Source: Thiohalospira halophila DSM 15071
GTDB taxonomy: Bacteria > Pseudomonadota > Gammaproteobacteria > Thiohalospirales > Thiohalospiraceae
Assembly: GCF_900112605.1 (NCBI RefSeq)
Contig: NZ_FOMJ01000001.1
Location: 706,577-770,576, forward strand
Direction: 5' to 3'
Length of the DNA stretch: 64,000 bases
Both the position numbers and the translations under genes were made by a program. Below are positions 58,400 to 62,839 of this stretch, piece by piece. The notes beneath the pieces were generated by a model that was given only the letters and a program-made list of their open reading frames with translations, had not been told where the DNA came from and did no database searches. Positions within the stretch are counted from its first letter, which is position 1; every line of letters starts with the position of its first letter.

Positions 58400-58777
58400 C
58401 TAGTAACCCCCGGCGGCGTGGACCTCCGGCAAGTCTTCCCCTGTTTCCATCAGCGTCCACATCAGCCGGGCGATGCTCTCGGGCGCGATCACCGTATGCC
58501 GATTGCCGGCGGCGGCGAGCTTCTCCCTGAGCTGCTGGCGCACATCAGGGCTGCCGGTGAGATCGAAGATGACGTCCACTCCGCTGCCCTCGGCAACGAT
58601 GTCGTCGATGGTCCCCGTGGGCAACCCGGCCTCCTCGGCCATCTTCAGACCGTCGGTCTTCGAGAGCTGGGCCACCCGGACGATGTTCACGCCCTCTTCC
58701 CGCCGGGCCAGCATCCGTTGCAGGAAGACCGTACCGACCCGCCCCAGACCGACAATGGCGATGTTGTGTTCCGTCAT
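58400..58777 (-). CDS. small stand-alone NAD-binding Rossmann protein (homoserine dehydrogenase-like N-domain)
   Basis: The 125-aa protein is a complete Rossmann half: NIAIVGLGRVGTVFLQRML with GxGxxG, and DVIFDLTGSPDVRQQLREKL, which resembles NAD-binding domains of homoserine or aspartate-type dehydrogenases. No catalytic domain follows; it ends at HAAGGY. Start ATG 58777 has AGGAGG 4 nt upstream, so it is a real translated gene. It converges on fimT (17 bp) and diverges from the chemoreceptor. The role is unknown; a redox or nucleotide sensor is possible. Confidence 0.7.
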   Translation of the reverse strand: MTEHNIAIVGLGRVGTVFLQRMLARREEGVNIVRVAQLSKTDGLKMAEEAGLPTGTIDDIVAEGSGVDVIFDLTGSPDVRQQLREKLAAAGNRHTVIAPESIARLMWTLMETGEDLPEVHAAGGY

Positions 58778-58959
58778 GACTCCTCCTTTTTGGTTTACTT
58801 CCCGGCCGAGTCTGTTCACAAATTGCACGACTTTCCATGACTCCAGACAACTTTTAACTGGTGTCACACCCTGCCGGGCTTTGGCATAAGCGGTTGCCGC
58901 GGTACCAAGGTCCGGACTACCCTGTCACCAATCACTGACCGACCAAAGGGAATTAACCC

Positions 58960-60579
58960 GTGCTCATCAAACCCACGATTGGCCGCAAACTCGCCCTGGC
59001 CTTCGGCTCCATCACCCTCGTGCTCATCCTGGTCGGTATCGTCGCCTGGGCCACCCTGGGGACCATGGACCGGAAGCAGGGACACGCCAATGAACTCCTG
59101 GACCAGACCCTCTTCCAGGCGGAGAAGGAGATCGACCACCTGGCCTGGAGCAATGAGCTGGCGAATTCCCTGATCCGCCGCGAACCCTTCTCCGGCGAAC
59201 TGGACCCGGAACAGTGCGCATTCGGCCAGTGGTACCAGGATTTCGCAGAATCCGACCTCTACGCGCGGCTGCCGGATGCCTACCACGGGCACTTCGAGGC
59301 ACTGAACGCCCCCCACCGCGCTCTCCACAACTCGGCGCGGGAGATCAGGGACCTCGAACAGGCCGGGCGTTACGTGGAGGCGGAATCGGTCTATACCGAG
59401 GAAACCCAGAAGCATCTGGGCGAGCTCCGCGGCACCTTCGGCGAACTGCAGAAAGTCCTCCTGGAAGAGGAGAAGGCTGCGGTCGCCTCGGCCAACGAGC
59501 AGGCGAACACCGCGCGCCAGGTCATCCTCGGCGGGATCCTGCTGGCCGCCCTCCTGGCCGCCGGCCTCACGGTCCTCATGACCCGCCAGGTCACTACCCC
59601 CGTGTACGCCCTGCGCACCAAGCTCGACCACCTGGCCGACGGCCACCTGGACACCGACCCGGTGGAGGTCAAGACCCACGACGAGATGGCCGAGGCGGCC
59701 CGGGCGGTTAACACCATGGAGGCGAGCTTCCGCCAGCTGGTGGGCAGCGTGCTGGAATCGGTCCAGCAGCTGGTCCAGTCCACCCGCCGACTGTCCGATC
59801 TCTCCCACGAAACGCTGGAGAGCGTGGAGGAACAGCGTAACGAGACCGATCAGGTGGCCACGGCCACCAACGAGATGGCCTCCACCGCCGAGGAGATCGC
59901 CCGCAACGCCAACCAGGCCTCGGATGCCGGCCAGGAGGTCACCCAGAGTGCCCGCAATGGGGCCTCCCAGGCGGGGGATACGCGCCAGGCCATCGAGGAG
60001 CTCAACCGCGCCATTGGCGATGCCGCGGAGCGAATCCGGAACGTGGAGAGCGAGAGCGAGGCCATCGGGTCGGTCATCGACACCATCAACGAGATCGCCG
60101 GCCAGACCAATCTCCTGGCCCTGAATGCCGCCATCGAGGCCGCCCGCGCCGGGGAATCCGGTCGCGGCTTCTCGGTCGTGGCCGAAGAGGTCCGCAACCT
60201 CGCCAACCGTACCCAGGAATCCACCGGCGACATCCAGCAGAAGATCGAGGGGCTCCAGCAGGGCGTCCAGTCGGCCGTCTCCACCATGGAGAACGCCACC
60301 GAGCAGGCCACCCGCGGGCGCGACCTCACCGGCGAGACCACCGAGGCCCTGCAGTCCATCGCCTCGCGCATCGACGAGATCGAGGCGATGTTCTCCCAGA
60401 TCGCCACGGCCACCGAGGAGCAGACCAGCGTGGCCGAAGAGATGAACCAGAACGTCACCCGGATCAACGACCGCGCCAGCACCAACGACAACAAGGCGCG
60501 GGAGGTGGAGGAGGTCAGCAAGCGGCTCGCCGAACTCACCCACTCGGTGCAGGAGCAGCTCAACCACTTCCGGTTCTAG
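58960..60579 (+). CDS. methyl-accepting chemotaxis protein with extracytoplasmic CZB zinc domain
   Basis: The 539-aa receptor has TM1 (about 11-33), an extracytoplasmic region (34-187), TM2 (188-207), HAMP (208-262) and the signalling domain with tip [20 protein letters not shown]. The outer region contains the full CZB motif: H60-LAW, 22 residues, C86-AFGQW, 27 residues, then H119-RALH123. This spacing fits Hxx[WFYL]-x21-28-CxFGxW-x18-27-HxxxH, known to bind zinc through three histidines and one cysteine. Most CZB domains are cytoplasmic; here it is between the membrane segments. GTG start with GGGA 8-9 nt upstream. There is no C-terminal CheR-docking pentapeptide. The zupT-like gene follows after 27 bp. 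Confidence 0.92.
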
Positions 60580-60606
60580 CCGGGACGGGACAGCCGGGAA
60601 CGCGGG

Positions 60607-61386
60607 ATGGAATCCGCAGCGGTCACCGCCCTCGCCCTCACCACCGTGGCCGGCCTTGCGACCGGCCTGGGCGGGGTGGCCGCCCTCTTCATCCGCCGGG
60701 ATCAGCACGCCTTCCTGGCGGTGAGTCTGGGCCTCTCGGCCGGCGTAATGATCTACATCTCCTTCGTGGAACTCTACGCCGATGCGGTGGAGTACATCGG
60801 TGGTGAGAACGGCGAATGGATCGCGACAACCGCCTTCCTGCTGGGCATGGTGGCCACCGCGATCATCGACGGCCTGGTCCCCGAGGGCGAGAATCCCCAC
60901 CAGGCACGCAGCCTGGAGAGCATCCGCGAGGATCCGCGACTCCTCCGGCTGGGCACACTGGCCGCCCTGGCCATCACCCTGCACAACTTCCCCGAAGGGA
61001 TGGCCACCTTCATCGCCGCCCTGACCGATCCGGTAGTAGGCAGTTCAGTCGCCCTGGCAGTAGGCCTGCACAACATCCCGGAGGGGATCGCCGTCGCCAT
61101 TCCCCTCTTCTACGCCACAGCCCGGCGGGGTCGGGCCGTGGGGCTCGCCTTCCTCTCCGGCCTCGCCGAGCCTCTGGGCGCCCTGGCCGCCTTCCTGGTC
61201 CTGCGCCCCTTCCTGGATGACGCCCTGATGGGGATCGTCTTTGCGGCCGTGGCCGGGATCATGGTCTTCGTCTCCCTGGACCAGCTGGTACCCAATGCCA
61301 AGCTCTACGGCCGGGGCCATCAGTCGGTCTACGGACTCGTGGGCGGCATGGCCCTCATGGCGACACTGCTCAACCTGGCAGGCTGA
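60607..61386 (+). CDS. zupT: ZIP-family zinc transporter (ZupT)
   Basis: ZupT imports zinc and some other divalent metals across the inner membrane. The 259-aa protein has eight membrane segments. The two metal-binding motifs are HNFPEG (H126-E130) in segment 4 and HNIPEG (H155-E159) in segment 5, exactly as in the GufA/ZupT family. It is 27 bp downstream of the CZB chemoreceptor on the same strand with no terminator between, so it is probably co-transcribed with that receptor. Confidence 0.95.
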   Translation: MESAAVTALALTTVAGLATGLGGVAALFIRRDQHAFLAVSLGLSAGVMIYISFVELYADAVEYIGGENGEWIATTAFLLGMVATAIIDGLVPEGENPHQARSLESIREDPRLLRLGTLAALAITLHNFPEGMATFIAALTDPVVGSSVALAVGLHNIPEGIAVAIPLFYATARRGRAVGLAFLSGLAEPLGALAAFLVLRPFLDDALMGIVFAAVAGIMVFVSLDQLVPNAKLYGRGHQSVYGLVGGMALMATLLNLAG

Positions 61387-61435
61387 GCTTCCCCGAATGA
61401 GCCGGGCCCGCCTATACCGGCCCCCGGCCCTGACG

Positions 61436-61441
61436 TACAAT
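61436..61441 (+). promoter_or_regulatory. candidate -10 box of ugd
   Basis: TACAAT at 61436-61441 is 40 bp before the ugd ATG. No good -35 is seen at 16-18 bp. A CCCC-TTTGAAAC-GGGG inverted repeat (61445-61460) lies just after it. Confidence 0.35.
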
Positions 61442-61480
61442 GCGCCCCTTTGAAACGGGGTCTTCCAGGGAGCGAACGGC

Positions 61481-62839
61481 ATGAACGTGACGATCTTCGG
61501 CTCGGGCTACGTGGGGCTGGTTACCGGTACCTGTCTCGCCGAGATGGGCAACGACGTGGTCTGCGTGGATGTGGACCAGCGCAAGATCGAGATGCTCGAG
61601 CGCGGCGAGATCCCCATCTACGAGCCGGGCCTGGAGTCCATGGTCCACGAGAACACCGCCGCCGGTCGCCTGCGCTTCACCACCGACATCGCCGACGGCG
61701 TGGCCCACGGCCTGTTCCAGTTCATCGCCGTGGGGACCCCGCCGGACGAGGACGGCTCCGCCGACCTCCAGTACGTCCTAGCCGTCGCCCGCTCCGTGGG
61801 TGAGCACATGGACGACTACAAGGTCATCATCGACAAGTCCACGGTGCCGGTGGGCACCGCCGACCGGGTGCGCGAGGCGGTCTCGGAGACCCTGACCCGC
61901 CGCGGCGCCGAGCTGGAGTTCGACGTGGTCTCCAACCCCGAATTCCTCAAGGAGGGGGCGGCCATCGACGACTTCATGAAGCCGGACCGGGTCATCGTCG
62001 GCACCGACAACCCCCGGACCACCGAGCTCCTGCGCGCCCTCTACGCCCCCTTCAACCGCAACCACGACCGGCTCATCGCCATGGACATCCGCTCGGCGGA
62101 GCTGACCAAGTACGCCGCCAACGCCATGCTGGCGACCAAGATCAGCTTCATGAACGAGCTCTCCAACCTGGCGGACCGGCTGGGCGCCGACATCGAGGCG
62201 GTGCGCAACGGCATCGGCTCCGACCCGCGCATCGGCTACTCCTTCATCTATCCCGGGGCCGGCTACGGCGGCTCCTGCTTCCCCAAGGACGTCAAGGCGC
62301 TGGAGCGCACTGCCCGGGACGTGGGCTACGAGGCCGAGCTGCTGAGCGCCGTGGAGGCGGTGAACGACCGCCAGAAGTCGGTCCTCTTCAACAAGCTCCA
62401 CGCCCACTTCGGCGGCGCGCTGGCCGGCAGGACCATCGCCCTCTGGGGGCTGGCCTTCAAGCCCAACACTGATGACATGCGGGAGGCCCCGGCGCGGGTC
62501 CTGATGGAGTCGCTGTGGCAGGCCGGCGCCCGGGTGCGGGCCTTCGACCCCGAGGCCATGGAGGAGACCCACCGGATCTACGGCGAGCGCGACGACCTGG
62601 CACTGGTGGAGGGGCCGGAGGCGGCCCTGGAGGGGGCCGATGCCCTGGTGGTCATCACCGAGTGGCACCCCTTCCGCAGCCCCGACTTCGCCCTGGTGAA
62701 GGAGCGGCTGAAGCAGCCGGTGGTCTTCGACGGCCGCAACATCTACGACCCCGCCTACATGGCCGGCCAGGGCTTCACCTACTACGCCATCGGCCGGCCG
62801 CCGGTGGGGGACGCCGTGGCCGACCGGCGCGCCGACTGA
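61481..62839 (+). CDS. ugd: UDP-glucose / UDP-sugar 6-dehydrogenase
   Basis: Ugd oxidises UDP-glucose to UDP-glucuronate, a precursor of capsule and lipopolysaccharide sugars. It has the Rossmann motif [74 protein letters not shown] and the catalytic cysteine C266 in [12 protein letters not shown]. Length is 452 aa. Start ATG 61481 ([12 protein letters not shown]). It converges with the pseudaminic acid synthase gene, 30 bp away, so the window ends in a surface-sugar region. Confidence 0.95.

Follow-up and report, generated by a model that had tools for sequence, protein, structure and literature searches.

The window analysed here is a stretch of 64,000 nucleotides from Thiohalospira halophila DSM 15071 (contig NZ_FOMJ01000001.1, positions 706,577 to 770,576). 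Close to its downstream end, a chemoreceptor gene is followed on the same strand by a gene for a ZIP-type metal importer. The following features were assigned:

58960..60579, + strand: chemoreceptor open reading frame, 539 aa with a GTG start, arranged as TM-CZB-TM-HAMP-MCP (ORF, Pfam and hydropathy)
58990..59046, + strand: membrane helix 1 of the receptor, aa 11-29 (hydropathy)
59137..59346, + strand: CZB domain of the receptor (PF13682), aa 60-129, with the predicted zinc ligands H60, C86, H119 and H123 (Pfam, topology and fold match)
59521..59577, + strand: membrane helix 2 of the receptor, aa 188-206 (hydropathy)
59575..59718, + strand: HAMP domain of the receptor, aa 206-253 (Pfam)
59974..60471, + strand: MCPsignal domain of the receptor, aa 339-504 (Pfam)
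60580..60606, + strand: gap of 27 bp between receptor and zupT, with no terminator-like site
60607..61386, + strand: ZupT-type ZIP metal importer, 259 aa (NCBIfam NF003243 and motifs)
60982-60999, + strand: HNFPEG motif of ZupT, aa 126-131
61069-61086, + strand: HNIPEG motif of ZupT, aa 155-160

In the receptor, the CZB domain (50 bits, with the cut-off at 29.4) as well as the HAMP and MCP domains scored above their Pfam cut-offs. The two helices on either side of the CZB domain are strongly hydrophobic, which places the domain on the periplasmic side, given the usual topology of chemoreceptors. C86 is the sole cysteine of the protein, and the three histidines of the motif are likewise present. 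The protein thus combines a 3His/1Cys CZB domain between N-terminal membrane helices with a subsequent HAMP and MCPsignal part, and the complete CZB motif between two membrane segments, as described in an earlier note made from the letters of the sequence, was borne out by Pfam and hydropathy. The features of the receptor and of ZupT as first read are not due to chance.

The AlphaFold model of the sensor domain (mean pLDDT 94.3) has the CZB fold, and its top two Foldseek matches were chains B and A of 3T9O, the CZB domain of DgcZ, with a probability of 1.00 and TM values, by target, of 0.78-0.81. In a comparison using VIA-align, ordinary 4HB chemoreceptor LBDs reached Z values of 13-15 against 12.7 for CZB, so that the two types are separated by the sequence signature and not by the fold alone. 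A PDB-sequence profile search with the LBD alignment gave one weak unrelated match and nothing else. Across 50 aligned sensor domains, the invariant columns were H60, C86, H119 and H123 together with E57, W63, G89 and W91 (receptor numbering), where the invariance of H60 and C86 is partly built in, because the search patterns partly selected these residues and the sequences were also motif-filtered.

Relatives of the receptor were found in genomes of many phyla: the alignment-based scan of genome contigs recovered 408 of them, and nothing was returned by a scan of genome contigs with the single sequence. Among the best 80 of these 408 relatives, the CZB domain is flanked by a membrane helix on both sides in 78, and the full CZB signature is kept in 79; this holds for its HxxxH element too, for which the scan pattern had not selected. 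Their taxa include Ectothiorhodospira, Halorhodospira, Desulfobacterota and Bacillota MAGs, and many of them we take to be free-living, often in anaerobic or saline habitats.

A group of chemoreceptors with a periplasmic CZB domain in the N-terminal region has already been described: Perkins et al. (2021, mBio; PMC8262984) report 384 such sequences, about 3.9% of CZB proteins. The receptor belongs to this described subgroup: it is membrane-bound, its CZB domain is N-terminal, and its motif (CAFGQWY) carries Ala at position 2, as reported there for CZB groups including the periplasmic one. The earlier view of a periplasmic CZB domain as unusual holds with respect to its proportion among CZB proteins, but not with respect to the architecture, which was already known in 2021. 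No difference between the receptor itself and this subgroup was apparent, and the available text of the paper says nothing of a zupT gene beside such receptors. Of 79 relatives, 22 have Ala at motif position 2, 21 have Asp, 14 have Gly and one has Arg.

The comparison with better-known CZB proteins shows where the receptor stands. Like TlpD of H. pylori, it couples a CZB domain with the same zinc-ligand signature to an MCP signalling domain, whereas TlpD is soluble and its CZB domain is C-terminal and cytoplasmic. With DgcZ of E. coli it shares an N-terminal CZB domain of the same fold, but DgcZ is a cytosolic diguanylate cyclase without membrane helices. In DgcZ, the CZB zinc site is reported to control the output, and in TlpD to be connected with the kinase interface. 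By analogy with this zinc- and oxidation-dependent control, a signal path from the zinc site via TM2 and HAMP to the kinase can be proposed for the receptor. Its four-helix sensor domain would hold one zinc ion outside the inner membrane by means of three His and one Cys. A change at this site would shift the helices into TM2 and HAMP and might thereby alter the activity of CheA in one direction or the other; it could arise when the site loses its zinc under scarcity or chelation of external zinc, or when C86 is oxidised. The receptor probably reports the zinc occupancy or the oxidation of its site. CheW-domain matches at 11 places in the genome represent possible receivers of its signal.

With regard to the stimulus, the receptor could mainly sense oxidants (HOCl or other reactive species) in the way proposed for TlpD and DgcZ, through the cysteine that binds zinc, with zinc itself serving only as a cofactor. 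The cysteine is present in the receptor and kept in its relatives, and cluster III, into which the periplasmic group falls, includes HOCl sensors, as does cluster I (available text of PMC8262984). On the other hand, soluble chemoreceptors often have Arg at motif position 2, where this receptor has Ala and just the one relative mentioned above has Arg, and our literature search found no reported assay of any periplasmic CZB domain. Furthermore, inflammatory HOCl is no obvious signal for free-living relatives from often anaerobic or saline habitats, which makes HOCl of a host unlikely as a general stimulus. We consider an oxidant sensor in this strict sense possible, but clearly the less probable reading; our guess is that zinc availability or the redox chemistry of the habitat is a more economical stimulus than host HOCl. 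Somewhat less probable still, and in our view unlikely, is a purely structural zinc site in a receptor that senses another ligand in its four-helix bundle, like Tar, Tsr and related receptors. The Z values given above, which are no lower for 4HB LBDs than for CZB, would fit this explanation, but Foldseek ranked the CZB domain of DgcZ first, the conserved positions cluster at and around the zinc ligands, and the reported roles of the zinc site in DgcZ and TlpD speak against a mere structural function.

The second gene of the pair encodes a protein scoring 308.1 bits against the equivalog cut-off of 252 of NF003243, and both of its HNxPEG motifs are conserved across 13 ZupT homologs. The identification of a ZupT-type importer with both motifs, 27 bp from the receptor, therefore stands, and no difference from the ZupT type within the ZIP family was found. 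It is best read as an ordinary divalent-metal importer with a predicted housekeeping role. In the genome, zupT is the only ZIP gene that was found; two ZnuA-family and two Fur-family matches are also present. Viral contigs scanned with ZupT yielded no match.

Both genes lie on the same strand with a spacing like that within an operon, as the earlier note had stated, and from this spacing co-transcription is plausible, so that receptor and ZupT may share one mRNA in T. halophila. The scan of 58600-61700 for terminator-like and sigma-70-like sites came back empty throughout, and for this reason it does not discriminate on co-transcription. Scans for a Zur box and a sigma-28 site upstream of the receptor gave chance-level scores only. 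An E. coli-type Zur box was found neither near the receptor or zupT nor in the fetched znuA regions of the same genome; its absence at the two genes is thus uninformative, and Zur control is neither supported nor excluded. Upstream, a divergent gene (58400-58867, - strand) shows a weak match to an NAD-binding domain; its true start is likely the ATG at 58778 after AGGAGG, leaving a divergent intergenic region of 181 bp before the receptor. Downstream, a gene of the UDP-glucose/GDP-mannose dehydrogenase family (61481-62839, same strand) starts 94 bp after zupT and could share a transcript with it.

The earlier note had also suggested that receptor and importer act as a functional pair and had proposed a search for CZB-MCP genes next to ZIP transporters in other genomes as a check. 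This search covered the loci of the best 80 of the 408 relatives, each taken with flanks of up to 6 kb; of 79 parsed loci, 62 had flanks of 2 kb or more in both directions. Using tblastn with ZupT and an HMM from six ZupT sequences, no ZIP gene was detected in any of the 80 loci, nor was a ZIP neighbour present at the two closest relatives from a class-level search, at 43 and 38% across the sensor region. Conversely, no MCP or CZB was found within about 1.5 kb of 13 other ZupT loci. ZupT itself is sparse (6/369 class genomes at E<=1e-30 and 12/398 at phylum level). Of 45 genomes with the receptor that were searched as a whole, 25 gave a Pfam Zip match, which passed the cut-off in 24, and the other 20 gave none. 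The suggested pair thus failed to recur in either direction, and since the earlier note had named a lack of co-occurrence in other genomes as a sign of a chance neighbourhood, its own check speaks against a functional pair.

Among the neighbours of the relatives, no recurrent function was apparent: 68 proteins from about 37 receptor loci matched 82 scattered Pfam families, the commonest of which occurred in three proteins. This tally considers the 25 commonest of the 82 families, and the result for ZIP genes rests instead on the locus and whole-genome searches. The T. halophila genome contains about 14 MCP-like matches and, as we assume from a rough estimate, about 2,500 genes. At these numbers, chance alone would be expected to place some MCP gene next to zupT in about 1% of genomes of this kind. 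With neighbours lacking a recurrent function and no ZIP gene at its relatives, the receptor behaves as an orphan, and a local event is the simplest account of how it came to lie next to zupT; that receptor and importer are neighbours here is probably coincidental. T. halophila is the only genome of its genus in our sample. The relatives compared are distant ones, and the lack of the pair among them would be compatible with a functional link of recent origin.

Such a link would take the form of a lineage-specific zinc acquisition operon, in which the periplasmic CZB receptor steers the cell along gradients towards zinc and the importer is co-expressed from one transcript; we regard this as quite improbable, even though the 27-bp gap without a terminator-like site (none being found in the surrounding region either), the shared strand, the zinc-related role of both products and the lack of a second ZIP gene favour it, as the pair is absent from all 80 receptor loci and 13 other ZupT loci, the ZnuA-family proteins make it probable that uptake does not depend on ZupT alone, and an E. 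coli-type Zur box is missing upstream of either gene, which, as at znuA, carries no weight. A chemoreceptor tied to zinc starvation is known from V. cholerae, where AerB of VSP-II is under the control of Zur/VerA (PMC8248653). AerB, however, is a PAS energy-taxis receptor with a regulatory link to zinc, and is neither a zinc-binding sensor nor in an operon with an importer.

Altogether, we are fairly confident that the locus contains an orphan periplasmic CZB chemoreceptor beside an ordinary importer, in a neighbourhood that is lineage-specific and not a conserved functional module. The zupT neighbour itself adds little. The periplasmic subgroup bears on the question of direct sensing of external zinc by CZB receptors, and its widespread relatives make this question testable.

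Two further observations concern CZB receptors in general. The same genome encodes a second one (C5:193124-193321), a soluble, TlpD-type protein of 451 aa with the CZB domain near its C-terminus, and cytoplasmic and periplasmic CZB sensors thus coexist in T. halophila. Besides that, 14 of 79 relatives carry tandem CZB units between the two membrane helices (two units in 11 and three in 3; loci L126-L129, L135-L137, L139, L141, L144, L148, L151, L152 and L155). The repeat mostly measures about 92 aa, and many of these relatives are Desulfobacterota MAGs. Tandem CZB domains are not mentioned in the available text of Perkins et al. (PMC8262984), and may be a more interesting lead than the pairing of receptor and zupT.
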